Shown here: positions 57,511 through 62,303 of the stretch, piece after piece
Numbering within the stretch: the stretch's first letter is position 1
Layout: each line of letters starts with the position of its first letter
NCBI GenBank assembly: GCA_035712365.1
Contig: DASTAW010000008.1
Location: 224,842 to 288,841 of the forward strand
DNA length: 64,000 nt
Direction: 5' to 3'
Origin: Terriglobia bacterium
Lineage (GTDB): Bacteria > Acidobacteriota > Terriglobia > UBA7540
Notes under the pieces: generated by a model
What the model was told of the DNA's origin: nothing
The model's database searches: none
The model's input: only the letters and a program-made list of their open reading frames with translations
Program-made: the position numbers and the translations under genes

Positions 57511-57637
57511 CAGTGGCCCGATGCCCCAATCGAAGCGGGTACGCGCGGCTGGCGCATGTGCTGCGCCGTTTGGATTGCATGCGCGGTATTTCGAGTGCTT
57601 GATGTCTGCGCCACCCGCGAGCGATAGAGCCGGGTAG

Positions 57638-57680
57638 CGCAGACTCTCGAGTTTTTGAGAGTCTGCGGTTTTTGATTTTC
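57638..57680 (+). terminator. Hairpin with T-run (dispersed repeat B, copy 1)
   Basis: A perfect 11-bp inverted repeat CGCAGACTCTC / GAGAGTCTGCG (57638-57667) has a short T-rich loop and is followed by GTTTTTGATTTT. It can end transcription of the TMEM175 gene. An almost identical hairpin lies at 58627-58656, and one with the same layout but a different stem at 25002-25026. Confidence 0.7.
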
Positions 57681-58343: not shown

Positions 58344-58961
58344 GAAAAAACCTTGGCCTCCTGCACCGCGCTATTCTAACCCCACCCATCTCCGCGGAGA
58401 CAGACATTAAATAATCGATATGTGCGTCGTTGGCACAGAGCTTTCCCTCTTCAGGGGCTGAAAGCCCGCTCTGTTAGCCTGCTGTTTTCTGTCGGACCTG
58501 AAGGTCCTACCCCTGGTCTTTTTAGGCATGGCCGCAGTTCCACCGTTAGGAGGTCGGAGCTTTTCAGCTCCGACACTTCTCAGGCACTCTCCAGCCAAGA
58601 GGCTTTCAGCCTCTGAAGCCGGGTGGCGCAGACTCTCGAATTCTTGAGAGTCTGCGGCTTTTGATTTGAATTCTCGTGACCCTGTGCAACGAGGCAGCGG
58701 CGCCCGTCATTCCGATCCCGCGGAGCGGGAGAGGAATCTGCTTGTTCCTTCAAAGAGAACGAAACCGTAGCGGCGGCTTTACGCCGCCATGTGGCGAGGT
58801 AAACTCGCCGCTACGTGAACCCACGTGGTTAAAAATGCCCCACGGCAGAAGAATAATCTACCACCCTCGCCCTCCGGGAGAGGGCGGTCCTGCTTGGCGG
58901 GACCGCGTGAGGGCATCCTGCGTGCGCCAGCGTTCCCCGTTTGTGCTATCCTTTTGCGCAA
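58344..58961. repeat. Repeat-filled intergenic region at the edge of the defence island
   Basis: No gene. It contains repeat A copy 2 (58454-58519: GAAAGCCCGCTC...GCCTGCTGTTTTCTG), repeat B copy 2 (perfect 11-bp hairpin 58627-58656 followed by GCTTTTGATTT), and GGCGGCTTTACGCCGCC with GGCGAGGTAAACTCGCC near 58772-58815. A GC hairpin GAGGGCGGTCC...GGACCGCGTGAGGG lies near 58880-58915. Confidence 0.7.
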
Positions 58962-59216
58962 ATGGATTGGGAAAACAAGCTCTACTTTGGCGACAACCTC
59001 GGAATCCTCCGTGAGCATGTGGCGACGGAAAGCGTGGACCTCATCTATCTCGACCCGCCCTTCAATTCCAGCGCCACCTACAACGTTCTGTTCAAGGAAA
59101 AAAGCGGAGAAGAGTCCGCCGCCCAGATCACAGCCTTTGAAGATACCTGGCAATGGTCGCAGAAAACCGATGCGGTTTACTTACGACGTAGTTGGAGAGA
59201 TCGCGAGCAAACCTCC
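58962..59216 (+). pseudogene. 5' fragment of a site-specific DNA methyltransferase gene
   Basis: The frame from ATG 58962 reads MDWENKLYFGDNLGILREHV, then VDLIYLDPPFNSSATYN and EKSGEESAAQITAFEDTW, the N-terminus of a common N4/N6-type methyltransferase whose DPPF is the catalytic motif. After VY (59180) the frame is lost, but the next frame continues YDVVGEIASKPP to 59216, as the native protein would; one extra base would explain it. At 59217 the similarity ends and a promoter begins. The centre of the gene (some 300 codons, inferred) is missing; its 3' end lies at 61032-61475. Confidence 0.8.
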
Positions 59217-59244
59217 TTGACACTGAATAGCGTAGCGGTATAAT
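59217..59244 (+). promoter_or_regulatory. Consensus sigma-70 promoter of the restriction-modification cassette
   Basis: Perfect TTGACA (59217-59222) and perfect TATAAT (59239-59244) are separated by 16 bp. They lie exactly where similarity to the old methyltransferase gene ends, and 26 bp before the ribbon-helix-helix start codon. Confidence 0.8.
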
Positions 59245-59269
59245 GCTGTCTTGCCGTCTGGATGGCAAT

Positions 59270-59464
59270 ATGGCACAAGGGAACCAACTCAGCCTTATTC
59301 CGGTGACCAAGACGACGTTTCGGATTCCGAAAGAGACGCATCGCAGGCTTAAGATCAGGGCAATTCAGGAAGGTCGGCAAATGGCCGATATAGTGGTAGA
59401 TGCAATTGAAACTTACTTATCAAGTCGAAGAGCAACGAGCCCCGATCCCTTACCAGGGCGGTAG
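59270..59464 (+). CDS. Ribbon-helix-helix (CopG/Arc-like) protein, probable cassette regulator
   Basis: This 64-residue protein has the RHH pattern: a strand KTTFRIPKE (about 14-22), helix THRRLKIRAIQEG, then helix QMADIVVDAIETYLSSR. RHH dimers bind operator DNA through the strand, so this is probably the cassette's transcriptional regulator, in the place a controller protein has in other restriction-modification systems; an antitoxin role is possible. It begins 26 bp after a consensus -10 box. The methyltransferase frame starts inside it at 59400, giving a 65-bp overlap. The ATG at 59270 is preferred over upstream frame starts because the fold begins there. Confidence 0.7.
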   Translation: MAQGNQLSLIPVTKTTFRIPKETHRRLKIRAIQEGRQMADIVVDAIETYLSSRRATSPDPLPGR

Positions 59465-60164
59465 CCCGATCGTCTTGGTAAGACGAAAAGGCATCCGCCC
59501 GCGCAAGTCCCCGGCGGGCACAGCTACTAACAGCCTCGTTTTCTCCGCGTATCAGGGAACGAACTCAGATGTTTTCCCCCACGTGCTTTCGCTGTATGTC
59601 CCTCGGGGAAGCAAAGTTGCTGACGTTACTTTCGGGAAGGGCGTCTTCTGGAAAAATGTCGATCCCGAGTTTTACAACCTTCTCAAGAGCGACATAAGAA
59701 ATGGCATCGACTGCCGCGCCTTGCCATACAAGAGTGAGACGGTCGATGGCGTTGTGTTTGATCCGCCGTACATGCACACCCCCGGGGGCACAGCACACGA
59801 AGGACATCAGAACTACGAGTCATATTACAAAAACAACGGGACGGGCAATGGCACCTCGAAAAAGTACCATGACGCGGTCTTGGACTTGTACTTTCAAGGG
59901 TCATCAGAAGCGTGGAGGATCTTGAAGCCTGGGGGCATCTTCATCGTCAAGTGCCAGGATGAGGTCTGTGCGTGCCAGCAGCGATTAACGCACGTCGAGG
60001 TTATCAACCACCTGACGAAGGATATGTTTATCGCCGAAGACCTGTTCGTATTGATGCGAACCAATAAGCCTGGAGTTAGCCGTATCCTGCGACAACGGCA
60101 CGCTCGCAAGAATCACTCTTACTTCCTGGTCTTTAGGAAGAAGCCTTGCAGAACCAGGGTCTAA
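59400..60164 (+). CDS. DNA methyltransferase of the cassette
   Basis: This 254-residue protein has a SAM-site-like block VADVTFGKGVFWKNV (about 73-87) and a catalytic VVFDPPYMHTPGG (about 118-130), in the order FxG...DPPY. ILKPGGIFIVKCQDEV (about 177-192) and SYFLVFRKKP near the end fit an N4-cytosine or N6-adenine methyltransferase. It has no relation by eye to the flanking methyltransferase fragments. The start overlaps the RHH gene, which suggests translational coupling; no later start codon precedes the SAM motif. It converges with the endonuclease gene and their stop codons share bases (CTAA, 60161-60164). Confidence 0.8.
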   Translation: MQLKLTYQVEEQRAPIPYQGGSPIVLVRRKGIRPRKSPAGTATNSLVFSAYQGTNSDVFPHVLSLYVPRGSKVADVTFGKGVFWKNVDPEFYNLLKSDIRNGIDCRALPYKSETVDGVVFDPPYMHTPGGTAHEGHQNYESYYKNNGTGNGTSKKYHDAVLDLYFQGSSEAWRILKPGGIFIVKCQDEVCACQQRLTHVEVINHLTKDMFIAEDLFVLMRTNKPGVSRILRQRHARKNHSYFLVFRKKPCRTRV

Positions 60165-61009
60165 GCATACAACAGCGTTGGGAGATCGCTCAGGGCTTGG
60201 CCGAACGACCTTACCTCCAAGCGCGGGAATTTGGAGGCCAAGTCGAGGTAACTCTGGGGTGGGTCAAGGTAGTAAACGCGGCTCAGCTCGGCGACCCGAG
60301 ATTGGAACATCTGTAGTTGCTTCGGAACGCAGATCTCAATCACCTCGCCAGTCTTGCTGTCCCGCTTCGTTTCCGCAGCGACGACCAGAACGCCCCGGTA
60401 CACTCCCGTCCCAAATATCCTGTCCAATACGAGCTGATGAACCCACGCTTGAACAGCGCGCTCTCGCGTAGATGCCTTGATGGGAAGATGTATCTTACGG
60501 CTCTTCCCTTCCGGGTCAAAGACGTAGTCGGTCGGAAGGTCCGCGCCGGACTCTGGAACTCGGACCTTTTTTCGGGGGGCGACACCGACGGCCCGAGCCA
60601 CAATGTGACCGATCAGAATCTCGAAGAACGTCGCGGAGGCCTTCCGTCCCACCTCGCACACATCATTGGCCGCAAAAACGCTGTAGGCTATGGAATAGGT
60701 CGAGCTCACGATAGCCTCGGGCGCAGTGGCTCGAAACCCTCTTTGGAACGCCCGTAATAATTGTAGAAAATCTCCTTCGCGCTCAGCGTAAAGAGCCTCA
60801 TTGATCGGCCTGGATTGCCCAGCCAGCCTGAAGCTGAAGTATCTCTTTCCAACGACGCGCGACTTTAACGGCAGTCGCTCGGCTCGTGCAAGCATCTGCC
60901 GGGCATTCAAGGTCATCTCGGAAATAAGGCGGGCCACTGACCTTCCCCCAAGGTCTTTAGAGGCGGTTTCCTTCAACATTTGGTACTGGCTACTAAGTTG
61001 CTCGGGCAC
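60161..61009 (-). CDS. Putative type II restriction endonuclease of the cassette
   Basis: This 282-residue protein has no domain I can name with certainty. Its core, LPTDYVFDPEG (about 158-168) followed by KIHLPIKASTRERAVQAW (about 172-189), looks like a PD-(D/E)XK nuclease site. The acidic residue two before the Lys is replaced by Pro (PIK), and TFFEILIGH (E130) could supply the missing acid. The C-terminal half (VLVVAAETKRD, EICVPKQLQMFQ, VYYLDPPQSY) is strand-rich. The position, convergent with a methyltransferase and in the same insert, argues for the cognate endonuclease. The start is GTG 61009 or ATG 60979. Confidence 0.6.
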   Translation of the reverse strand: MPEQLSSQYQMLKETASKDLGGRSVARLISEMTLNARQMLARAERLPLKSRVVGKRYFSFRLAGQSRPINEALYAEREGDFLQLLRAFQRGFRATAPEAIVSSTYSIAYSVFAANDVCEVGRKASATFFEILIGHIVARAVGVAPRKKVRVPESGADLPTDYVFDPEGKSRKIHLPIKASTRERAVQAWVHQLVLDRIFGTGVYRGVLVVAAETKRDSKTGEVIEICVPKQLQMFQSRVAELSRVYYLDPPQSYLDLASKFPRLEVRSFGQALSDLPTLLYA

Positions 61010-61014
61010 AGGGC

Positions 61015-61029
61015 CGTGATATTATCACG
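61015..61029. promoter_or_regulatory. Perfect 15-bp palindrome upstream of the endonuclease start
   Basis: CGTGATATTATCACG is a perfect 7+1+7 palindrome, 6 bp upstream of the GTG of the endonuclease gene. On the minus strand it contains GATAAT, a possible -10 box. It may be the operator of the RHH protein. Confidence 0.5.
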
Positions 61030-61031
61030 AG

Positions 61032-61475
61032 GCTGCCTTCGATGCCATTTCCCATACGAGGAAGTCCGGCGTGAACAGCCACATCTATTTTGGGAGCCAT
61101 AAAAGTGGCAGGGCCAAGCAAGTGATCGTGCAAGTCAAAAGCGGCTACATCGGCGTCAACCATGTTCGCGACCTCAAAGGAGTTCTGGCCCGCGAGAAAG
61201 CCGCCATTGGCGCGCTGATCACTCTGCGCGAACCCACCAAGCCCATGCGGGTCGAAGCCGCCTCCGCCGGGTTCTATGAGACCTCCGACCCGTCGGAAAA
61301 ATTAATCAAGATGCAGCCCAACAGCGGGAGGCGCTCCCCGCGCCTGCAAATTCTTACTGTAGCTGAATTGCTTGCCGGCAAAAAGATCGAGTACCCAAGC
61401 GGCCCCATCGCCCGCGAGGAGACCTTCGCCAAAGCCGAGCGCAAAACCCGGCACCAGCAGGAGGAACTTTTTTGA
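61032..61475 (+). pseudogene. 3' fragment of the interrupted DNA methyltransferase gene
   Basis: The frame ending at the TGA at 61473-61475 reads NSHIYFGSHKSG, QVIVQVKSGYIGVNHVRDL, REKAAIGALITLREPTKPM, EAASAGFY and LQILTVAELLAGKKIEYP. This is the restriction-endonuclease-like C-terminal domain of the methyltransferase family whose N-terminus lies at 58962-59216. It has no start codon or ribosome site of its own. The exact left limit is uncertain: the palindrome ends at 61029, and family-like sequence is clear only from about 61056. Confidence 0.75.
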
Positions 61476-61504
61476 CCGTATCGACAGAGCGCAGGAGAGG
61501 AGAG

Positions 61505-62303
61505 ATGTCTAATTCGAGGTAAACTACCGAGGAACCGCCAGCGCAAAATCGAGTCGTCCTTTCCTAGGGCAACCCAGCACTTAAAGGAAGCTTATCCGCC
61601 CTGGGCTGCGCCATTTCTCGGGTCGGAGGCGAGAACCGCCTCGGCGCTACGCGAACTTTGGGACGGCTGGCACCTGCTCTGCGAGGCCAATCTCGCTCTA
61701 ATAGAATCGGAGGCCTGTTGGGCCTGGTATTCTGAGTTTCGAATCCCGTCCAGCGAAACGCTTGCAAAATACTTTTGTCTTTACTTCCTGGAGGACGTGG
61801 CCCTTCGGCTGGGGGCCAGCTGTGGGCACATGCTCTTAGCCCTTCGAAAACATATGGGTTTCAGGCTGGCTAAAGGCGGTGAAAGGGGCTCTATGCTGGC
61901 CAAGACCATCGCTGCGCTTGAAGCGCAGCCCGACCAGCCGCGTGCGCTCTTATGGCTACGCACTCTAAGCTTAAACAAAGCCTGGCAAGCCTGTTCTGAA
62001 TACCGGCATCGCTGGACGCACAATTCGCGTCCTGCCGTTGTGGGCCTCGGCTGTATCCTGACTTCGAAGAGGTTGGAGGTGACGGGCGACAGCGTGGGGT
62101 TTGGCTTCGGAACCAAGCAGCCCGTGGATTGGACCATCGAGCAGCTTCGACCTACTTTCAGGAAGGGGTACTCCGCTCTCCTTCGGGTTTACCTGGATGT
62201 CATGAAACTGATGTCGCCAGACCGTAAGTCGCTAAGGGCAGCGGAGCCTATGCGTAACCCTCGAAGGGCCGCGCCTCACCGCTTTGAAAGATCACACATT
62301 TAA
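61505..62303 (+). pseudogene. Frameshifted HEPN-like (Cthe_2314-type) gene
   Basis: An ATG at 61505 follows an unusually good site (GGAGAGGAGAG) but meets TAA after five codons. The neighbouring frame is open from 61476 to 62303 without any ATG, GTG or TTG before 61797. Dropping one T near 61520 joins them into about 265 codons. The product would be helical, with AKYFCLYFLEDVALRLGASC and later YRHRWTHNSRP, which holds the R-x4-H motif of HEPN ribonucleases. HEPN proteins act as toxins or defence effectors. The family call is tentative. It lies directly after the methyltransferase remnant. Confidence 0.5.

Follow-up and report, generated by a model that had tools for sequence, protein, structure and literature searches.

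How does a DNA methyltransferase gene come to hold, where its own centre should be, a unit that resembles a different restriction-modification (R-M) system? The question is raised by a 64,000-nucleotide stretch of a Terriglobia genome, the whole of which we call the window. We consider it probable that a predicted Type II R-M unit has replaced the middle of a methyltransferase–endonuclease fusion gene here, and that this is one of many likely exchanges of the gene body between retained ends.

Two ends of one gene enclose the unit

The host gene is a methyltransferase–Mrr fusion of ~555 codons, of which the window keeps codons 1–73 and the last ~135. An intact relative in the same genus (L133/L086) encodes 555 residues, with PF01555 at 25–354 and Mrr_cat at 390–480. 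The 5′ stub in the window (58962–59180, + strand), which includes the DPPF motif, is 93% identical to this relative (L133/P0121) over codons 1–73. The 3′ remnant (61067–61475, + strand), which runs through an Mrr-like domain (PF22722, 4.8e-10; Mrr_cat, 5.3e-6) to the stop codon, is 85–86% identical to roughly codons 419–555 of P0121. In DNA alignments, homology to the intact gene is clear to 59156 and weak to 59180 on the left, and clear from about 61105 and weak from about 61067 on the right, leaving host codons ~74–420 missing between the fragments.

The original prediction assigned both fragments to one gene rather than to unrelated genes, and their alignment to a single full-length relative bears this out. 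The fragments themselves stand, but the inner limits first given for them, 59216 and 61032, took in some junction or cassette sequence. We also rejected the possibility that the fragments are two separate intact genes: the 3′ remnant has GVN in place of the Mrr GID of the host, and both fragments align to one ORF. The fragments, the missing centre and the intervening unit are confirmed in the sequence as assembled, and other assemblies contain structures of this kind.

About 10 nt before the ATG lies the predicted promoter of the interrupted gene, an extended –10-like TGTGC-TATCCT (58942–58952, + strand). Read by eye, a TGTGnTATnCT-like sequence occupies the same upstream position in many intact and stub copies; it is absent in L116, L125 and L129 and different in L120, L121, L123, L127 and L128. 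Relatives of the intact gene are also present in Streptomyces phages and on plasmids.

The intervening unit is a predicted Type II R-M system

The cassette that replaces codons ~74–420 spans 59181–61066, its left edge being placed to within about 25 nt and its right edge to within about 40 nt. This 1.9-kb unit has the content first described for it: a consensus promoter, a ribbon-helix-helix (RHH) protein, a methyltransferase and a convergent putative nuclease. The predicted sigma70-type promoter (59217–59244, + strand) joins TTGACA (59217–59222) and TATAAT (59239–59244) across a 16-nt spacer and is the only exact TTGACA-N15–19-TATAAT on either strand of the window. The 64-residue RHH protein (59270–59464, + strand), a predicted autorepressor of the cassette, weakly matches PF22513 (5.1e-4) and a RelB-like NCBIfam (2e-4), both below curated cut-offs. 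The methyltransferase (59400–60164, + strand; 254 residues from the ATG at 59400) matches PF01555 (4e-6, just over the cut-off) and the PADLOC profiles mad2 (8e-8) and MTase_II (2.7e-6). Because many relatives align only from residue ~32–40, a TTG at 59475 is an alternative start.

Facing the methyltransferase gene, with a 4-nt overlap of the 3′ ends (60161–60164), is a gene with a GTG start for a 282-residue protein (60161–61009, – strand) that resembles Type II restriction endonucleases (PADLOC REase_II PDLC03502, 1.8e-22). Its only PDB match is the solved Type II enzyme 6ekr_A (E = 1.5e-20 with a single sequence, 1.5e-43 with a profile), which we take to be Kpn2I, a CCGG-family enzyme. The protein carries the conserved motif PTD...K.STRER...Q, and D151 and K168 (P0001 numbering), invariant in 12 aligned sequences, are likely its catalytic residues, judging from the family. 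As in Type II R-M systems, a methyltransferase gene adjoins a restriction endonuclease gene, whose product is homologous to a solved Type II enzyme and retains the likely catalytic residues.

CCGG-family Type II endonucleases are described as combining a PD...K...D/E active site with an R-(D/E)R recognition motif, followed in Kpn2I by a glutamine (PMC6344858). The window nuclease, homologous to 6ekr, has TD...K and R-E-R motifs, the latter followed by glutamine in alignments read by eye, and may belong to this family. We predict that both cassette enzymes recognise one site, which the methyltransferase would modify and the nuclease would cut; this site may have a CCGG core. We rejected CCGG avoidance as a trace of the enzyme: observed versus expected counts in the window are 31 versus 30.2 for TCCGGA, 80 versus 86.7 for GCCGGC, 21 versus 25.6 for CCCGGG and 7 versus 15.2 for ACCGGT, which show no clear depletion and are uninformative.

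In a search of genome contigs, relatives of the cassette methyltransferase are encoded in 100 of 128 candidate stretches, with 80 kept. The methyltransferase–nuclease pair recurs in 11 of these 80 loci, whereas the window's RHH protein, used as a query, finds a homologue in only one of them; an RHH homologue lies upstream of the methyltransferase in L003. The RHH protein is therefore present in the window, as originally noted, but is not a stable part of such units, and we rejected it as a hallmark of the cassette.

Profile searches found no match to a transposase family among the cassette proteins, and no long direct repeat brackets the unit within 58700–61700, both as first reported. Inverted repeats in that interval are only imperfect and do not lie at both edges, so the cassette has neither of the marks of a transposon- or IS-borne unit. 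Nor does it resemble a homing-endonuclease or intron-like insertion, as codons ~74–420 are lost and break points vary among the 25 loci described below.

The host gene is broken near its 5′ end in many genomes

Although the window was first taken to record a single event, it is one of many such loci. We read 25 in which the host gene is present as a 5′ stub, 24 in Acidobacteriota and one in Verrucomicrobiota. In all 25, the 5′ break falls between codons ~42 and ~127 of ~555, the survey having a detection floor of ~40 codons below which stubs are invisible. A 3′ remnant is kept in 15 of the 25, thinly so in L125 (19 codons at a contig end) and L126 (codons 346–409 only), and was not seen in the DNA examined around each of the other 10. 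Apparent 3′ matches of L118 and L169 (about codons 282–386) were dropped because they correspond to cargo methyltransferases. Several stubs and remnants resemble relics, being interrupted by stop codons, frameshifts or inserted repeats.

The window's own genome and 60 related ones (61 in all) contain 16 stubs, 11 full or near-full copies and 2 contig ends (G027:C160 and G026:C21). Three of the 11 are imperfect, with a frameshift in G030:C115, an internal gap in G057:C25 and a contig-limited copy in G014:C367. This count leaves out paralogue rows (G042:C165, G017, G036, G023:C151, G024:C298, G014:C356 and G026:C1), second pieces of one copy, G019:C422, G057:C24, G000:C29 and one of the rows of G008:C34, the second. 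It also omits G029:C88 (L177), which is probably another split copy. Stubs are fewer in a phylum sample, with 8 stub loci versus 20 full-length frames; the high stub rate is not uniform. The 32 rows of this sample comprise 2 from the window's own genome, 9 stub rows in the 8 loci, 1 contig end (G095:C74) and the 20 frames, each of 373 aa or more (including G156:C146, 399 aa, and G313:C1, 373 aa).

By comparison, the N-terminal domain of HsdM (HsdM_N) in the same genomes gives short frames in only 2 of 26 cases (Fisher p = 1e-4 against the host-gene stubs). This control was added because a paralogous methyltransferase subfamily offered too few cases: about five full copies and not one stub that could be resolved, G023:C151 running to the end of its contig. 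Copies without the 5′ end also exist (G027:C14 and G042:C158), and a second family yields, among the matches listed, about ten 5′ fragments and about five 3′-only fragments. The second-family fragments in G389, G369, G412, G432, G405, G409 and G359 lie outside the loci read, and L231–L233 lie outside the 25. One Spartobacteria genome has dispersed copies, with 8 matches to the 5′ segment and 1 long frame.

Varied cargo follows most stubs in the same orientation

The gaps hold 25 cargo units. Fifteen have R-M or candidate-defence matches, of BglII, Bpu10I, OLD/Gabija and PDC-M24 types, and 10 have none by PADLOC, run on 19 cargo ORFs (10 + 9), or by Pfam, the only scan applied to the remaining ORFs. 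L017 was counted through the match of its methyltransferase to that of the window, its 168-aa nuclease being outside the scan, and the second unit of L168 through its identity to L164. Nine of the 25 units include a methyltransferase, several together with a restriction enzyme, and cargos without a nuclease match (LMWPc, peptidoglycan-binding, TPR and trypsin-like) occupy the same slot. Unmatched ORFs in L119, L124 and the first unit of L168 may be spurious.

Cargo starts a median of 48 nt after the stub and is co-oriented with it in 23 of 25 loci, the exceptions being L114 and L130 (p = 2e-5; this and the Fisher value above are too optimistic, because the cargos are not all independent). L127 and L128 share cargo, as do L164 and L168, and the window, L167 and L017 share a methyltransferase family.

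Relatives record replacement in place, sharing and stacking

Two same-site pairs in relatives show the gene body being replaced where it stands. L115, refilled with an LMWPc protein and a 204-aa ORF, and the intact L133 occupy the same site: their upstream flanks align over about 3.2 kb at 89.6–92.1%, and the 3′ ends of their genes are 88% identical. L034/L167, refilled with a methyltransferase and a 171-aa REase-like protein, and the intact L173/L218 have both flanks in common (about 93% upstream, 84–95% downstream), with sharp junctions. Eight further species of that genus have the flanks of this second pair but not the gene, which suggests that an empty site first gained the gene and that the gene was then refilled. 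For the window's own site, we found neither an intact nor an empty allele: G001 has nothing that corresponds to the upstream flank, and G002 matches it only through a 52-bp repeat. The missing centre and the two pairs nevertheless support the view, taken from the outset, that an R-M-type unit occupies the centre of another methyltransferase gene by replacement and not by simple insertion.

L164 and L168 contain the same PDC-M24A/B cargo. Their homology (81% over 1838 bp) begins at the start of the host gene and stops close to its end, and their flanks are unrelated. Within one assembly, L171 and the intact L178 share an identical stretch of 99 bp, of which 92 bp lie from the start codon onwards, with an abrupt divergence beyond it. 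In L163, two stubs that are 98.4% identical over 124 bp flank one cargo, and two loci are stacked as stub–cargo–stub–cargo–remnant. Direct repeats at both edges, as left by a long target duplication, are absent from the window cassette, present in L163 and partly present in L168. At an ada-like locus, the extra DNA of G206 runs past the gene on both sides.

Possible exchange of cargo between retained gene ends

We tentatively propose that the methyltransferase–Mrr gene offers immunity genes a standing exchange slot. Two recombination arms would serve it, the conserved 5′ segment with the promoter, start and DPPF region and the 3′ Mrr segment, by which any cargo once captured between them could be passed from locus to locus and species to species, and swapped or stacked, without a transposase or integrase; the slot would lie in no mobile element, and its handles would be the remains of a defence gene. 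First entry of a cargo would be a rare illegitimate event. Stub–cargo–remnant DNA arriving at an intact copy elsewhere could then recombine with it through the two conserved end segments, so that the cargo spreads and the host gene works as an exchange slot; stacked loci would arise if only one crossover took place, in the 5′ segment. Expression of new cargo may be helped by the promoter and start that the stub retains, which would account for cargo lying close behind the stub and in its orientation; the window cassette has its own consensus promoter. We infer both the recombination between retained ends and the use of the retained promoter. Double-arm recombination is not the whole story, as 10 of the 25 stub loci have no 3′ remnant, and many independent captures are needed because break points differ among loci. 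Competition between methylation systems may be a driving force, as first suggested; 10 of the 25 cargo units match neither R-M nor defence genes.

Ordinary decay in a defence island, with the gene inactivated, cassettes landing by unrelated illegitimate insertion–deletion and the gene ends playing no role, seems to us unlikely. It would fit the variable break points, the degraded stubs and remnants, the 10 loci without a 3′ remnant and the copies that lack the 5′ end instead. Against decay, every 5′ break falls within codons ~42–127 of ~555, HsdM_N is short in only 2 of 26 frames of the same genomes, and cargo is co-oriented in 23 of 25 loci. The same stub–cargo–remnant between unrelated flanks (L164/L168) and the ends recently shared within one assembly (L171/L178) also argue against it.

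Less probable still is a mobile element that has the two ends of the gene as its termini, is recognisable to us through the gene and carries cargo with no later exchange inside it. Such an element could account for the L164/L168 unit, which is bounded by the gene ends, for the 8 dispersed 5′-segment matches and 1 long frame in a single Spartobacteria genome, and for relatives on phages and plasmids; yet there is no transposase or terminal repeat in or around the window unit, the L115/L133 and L034/L173 pairs show a gene already in place being altered internally, not a newly arrived element, and the extra DNA of G206 at the ada-like locus exceeds the gene on both sides. That the cassette restriction enzyme drives its own insertion by cutting the resident gene, as in homing, is very improbable: methyltransferases in 9 of 25 cargo units, several with a restriction enzyme, would suit this idea, but the slot is also filled by cargos that match no nuclease, the break points vary and CCGG hexamers in the window are not clearly depleted. 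We give almost no weight to a chimeric assembly of two methyltransferase loci, as the window's contig is 289 kb long, other genomes have equivalent structures on contigs of 164, 415, 978 and 1266 kb, and both outer fragments come from one gene in one orientation.

More broadly, defence genes turn over fast and cluster in islands, and the route of exchange where no mobile element is visible is often unclear. Here, such exchange can be tested directly by population genomics and simple recombination assays, since a single identifiable gene occurs intact, refilled or missing from its site, breaks in a shared 5′ zone, carries cargo in its own orientation and forms stacked copies across many genomes. 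The ~75-codon stub also serves as a search bait: among its catches are R-M systems, a gene of OLD/Gabija type, candidate PDC systems and uncharacterised cargo, some of which may encode new kinds of defence.

Comparison with known systems

In open-licence PMC papers, we found no report of a recurrently refilled methyltransferase gene or of one gene as a recurrent exchange slot; by these papers, single replacements are known from Helicobacter and Neisseria. R-M units are reported to insert with target duplications of the order of 100 bp (Nobusato 2000 and Furuta 2010, via PMC3874152 and PMC3031569). The 124-bp, 98.4% stub repeat around one cargo in L163 is of this kind, whereas the window has no such repeat and has lost the centre of the gene.

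In Neisseria, the dam-replacing gene drg is described as encoding a restriction enzyme and as having inserted at a DNA methyltransferase gene, which it inactivates; the drg and dam genotypes are reported to be mutually exclusive (PMC516771, PMC4269198). The likeness lies in inactivation of a methyltransferase gene by insertion of a restriction-enzyme gene; unlike the window family, drg is a single nuclease gene at a fixed locus, for which the account of the insertion reports no range of cargo (PMC516771).

The closest parallel in form comes from Helicobacter pylori, where hrgC is described as replacing the PabI R-M system, with 5′ and 3′ gene remnants of 78 bp and 88 bp staying in place (PMC4615327). 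In the window, too, a resident R-M locus has been replaced, short 5′ and 3′ remnants flank the newcomer, and at two sites in relatives (L115/L133 and L034/L173) an intact allele is known as well. By contrast with the one newcomer described at the hrgC/PabI locus (PMC4615327), many different cargos occupy a single gene family here, in two phyla and with stacking.

Loss of the centre of the host gene

The two fragments that bracket the cassette in the window belong to one methyltransferase gene, as the original prediction held, since both align to an intact host gene of the same genus (locus L133, = L086), a 555-codon methyltransferase–Mrr fusion with N6_N4_Mtase (25-354) and Mrr_cat (390-480) domains. 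The 5′ stub (58962-59180, + strand) covers host codons 1-73 at 93% identity to L133, and the 3′ remnant (61067-61475, + strand) covers the last ~135 codons at 85-86% identity to the intact relative. By DNA alignment, the left homology is clear up to 59156 and weak to 59180, the right homology is weak from 61067 and clear from about 61105, and codons ~74-420 are missing, so the centre of the old gene is indeed gone. In such methyltransferases, these codons encode the target-recognition and SAM-binding parts. A palindromic intergenic repeat lies upstream of the stub (58766-58815), and a 51-bp repeat (57628-57678) has three further copies in the genome, one of them at 58617-58667. Save for a 52-bp repeat, the site had no counterpart in the 2 other genomes of the genus.

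The contents of the cassette were also as predicted. A TTGACA-16-TATAAT promoter (59217-59244, + strand), the window's only exact match to this promoter type, precedes a 64-aa ribbon-helix-helix (RHH) protein, for which matches were weak and below cut-offs, then a methyltransferase (PF01555, 4e-6) and a convergent nuclease (PDLC03502, 1.8e-22); the last two genes overlap by 4 bases at their stop codons (60161-60164). Searched for elsewhere, this gene order survives in part: among 80 loci that encode a related methyltransferase, the methyltransferase and convergent nuclease are paired in 11, but the RHH protein is present in only 1. Among solved structures, the nuclease matches only PDB 6ekr (1.5e-20 for the sequence alone, 1.5e-43 for a profile of 12 sequences), whose entry names it a Type II site-specific deoxyribonuclease and which we take to be Kpn2I (T^CCGGA). 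The window nuclease keeps PTD...K.STRER...Q, a pattern compatible with the CCGG-family endonuclease motifs described in PMC6344858. A CCGG core is our guess, with some support, at its putative target.

Recurrence of the interrupted gene

The interrupted host gene in the window is not a single case. With the 5′ fragment as query, matches in 61 genomes (its own and 60 relatives), sorted by open frame and locus reading, comprised 16 stub loci, 11 copies that were full or nearly so and 2 cut off by contig ends and left undecided; a phylum sample of 297 genomes held 8 further stub loci and one contig end versus 20 long-frame copies. Adding L017 from Spartobacteria brings the stub loci to 25. In all of them the 5′ break falls between codons ~42 and ~127, stubs under ~40 codons being such as would escape the search. 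A 3′ remnant lies downstream of the cargo in 15 (the window, L115, L116, L117, L124, L125, L126, L129, L163, L164, L165, L167, L168, L170 and L017), thinly in L125 and L126, and ten have a 5′ stub alone (L114, L118, L119, L120, L122, L127, L128, L130, L169 and L171). Repeat-like insertions, seen by eye, interrupt stubs or remnants in L116, L119, L125, L129 and L130. L114 (8108-8359) is a second 5′ stub in the window's own genome, on contig 62, followed by a convergent 918-aa ORF whose sequence reads like a protein kinase; no 3′ remnant was found in the 12 kb examined.

A full-length query of the same 61 genomes gave, among the matches listed, about four 3′-only fragments (genome:contig G008:C12, G024:C162, G030:C20 and G001:C160) and two copies without the 5′ end (G027:C14 and G042:C158); 5′ stubs are therefore the commoner lesion but not the sole one. 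For a second family in 99 genomes, the matches listed included about ten 5′ and about five 3′-only fragments. Of 26 matches to an HsdM_N control family in the 61 genomes, 2 had frames <200 aa, versus 16 short copies among 27 for the host gene (Fisher p 1e-4, optimistic because loci are related).

The gene is not confined to the phylum. In the Verrucomicrobiota genome that holds L017 (G453), the 5′ segment was matched eight times; the matches include L017, a 546-aa long frame and further split copies that differ in their fillings (L231, L232 and, weakly, L233), these three being left out of the 25. Streptomyces phages carry relatives over most of the gene's length (46-49% identity, among 12 matches listed; records H13-H24, annotated as DNA methylase or methyltransferase), and 8 plasmid records have relatives spanning ≥80% of the query; the intact gene is thus probably mobile in its own right.

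Cargo

We read 25 cargo units in 23 loci, with two each in L163 and L168; L114 and L130 lack cargo oriented like the stub. Fifteen units, the window's included, match restriction-modification (R-M) or candidate-defence families: OLD/GajA (L116), methyltransferase with Bpu10I (L117, 2.5e-71), methyltransferase (L118, L122, L169 and L017), PDC-S45 (L125), Mrr (L127 and L128), methyltransferase with BglII (L163, second unit), PDC-M24A/B (L164, and L168 by identity to L164), methyltransferase with REase_II (L167) and D12 methyltransferase (L170). The other ten comprise LMWPc (with a weak PDC-M02A match, 2.8e-4), TPR, peptidoglycan-binding, peptidase M78 with DUF4411, a weak match to an RT-associated nuclease (8.4e-5) and five units that matched nothing. 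In 23 of 25 loci, stub and first cargo gene have the same orientation (p 2e-5, the loci not being fully independent). Cargo starts a median of 48 nt past the end of stub homology, within 100 nt in 20 of 25 units, and stub stop and possible cargo start abut or overlap in L118, L122, L120, L116 and L170. From their sequences, some ORFs downstream of the stubs in L116, L118 and L128 presumably encode DUF3800-like proteins.

Replacement and probable exchange

Two comparisons capture replacement in place. L115 and L133, on two contigs of one assembly, align over upstream blocks of 684, 1399 and 1409 bp (89.6-92.1%), the last running into the stub, and share the host gene's 3′ end (508 bp, 88%); L133 is intact, whereas LMWPc and a 204-aa ORF replace the middle of L115. 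Possibly the assembly co-bins two strains, with one allele from each. Likewise, L034/L167 (genome G230) and L173/L218 (G206) have common flanks (upstream 1127 bp, 92.6% identical; downstream 280 bp, 84% identical, and 3989 bp, 89% identical) and retained host-gene ends at 93-94%. L173 is intact; L034 is filled with a window-family methyltransferase and a 171-aa restriction-enzyme-like protein, and by eye has a transposase-like ORF inserted after the 3′ remnant. Eight other species of this genus (L209-L216) have both flanks and no host gene, the flanks being only ~73 bp apart in L212 and separated by 2.7 kb of other DNA in L209. Together, these states imply a site that was first empty, then gained the gene and finally had it refilled. 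G230, which matches record JAHBSL010000001.1 (an Acidobacteria MAG) at 100%, belongs to the same phylum as the window, which places the window in Acidobacteriota.

Other loci are consistent with exchange through the gene's ends. L164 and L168, with PDC-M24 cargo in common, are homologous over 1838 bp (81%), beginning at the host gene's start codon and stopping shortly before its end (cargo about 86%, stub 80%, remnant 65%). Elsewhere in the two 7-kb loci, L168's extra stub is the sole other match. In one assembly, L171 and intact L178 are identical over 99 bp (92 bp when counted from the start codon) and diverge abruptly beyond. Two loci are stacked: L163 (1111-5255) reads stub, peptidase M78 with DUF4411, stub, methyltransferase with BglII-like protein, 3′ remnant, with 98.4% identity between its stubs over 124 bp; L168 (42-2777, on a 978-kb contig) reads stub, 197-aa ORF, stub, PDC-M24A/B, 3′ remnant, its stubs 83% identical. 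Crossovers in the common 5′ segment could produce all of these patterns.

Against a role of the host gene's ends as recombination arms stand the absence of the 3′ remnant in 10 of 25 loci, the varying break points, the excess of full copies over stubs in the phylum sample, the 10 cargo units without a defence link and the lack, but for the 52-bp repeat, of a counterpart to the window's own site in the 2 other genomes of its genus. Stubs and remnants are often broken and thus are probably not kept as proteins.

Relation to known systems

In the open-licence PMC literature, we found no account of one gene as a recurrent slot for many unrelated cargos. PMC3874152, citing Nobusato 2000 and Furuta 2010, describes R-M units that insert with target duplications of around 100 bp. 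Single replacements are already known from two precedents: in H. pylori, hrgC took the place of the PabI R-M genes, whose ends persist as remnants of 78 bp and 88 bp (PMC4615327), and in Neisseria, dam is inactivated by drg sitting at dam (PMC516771).
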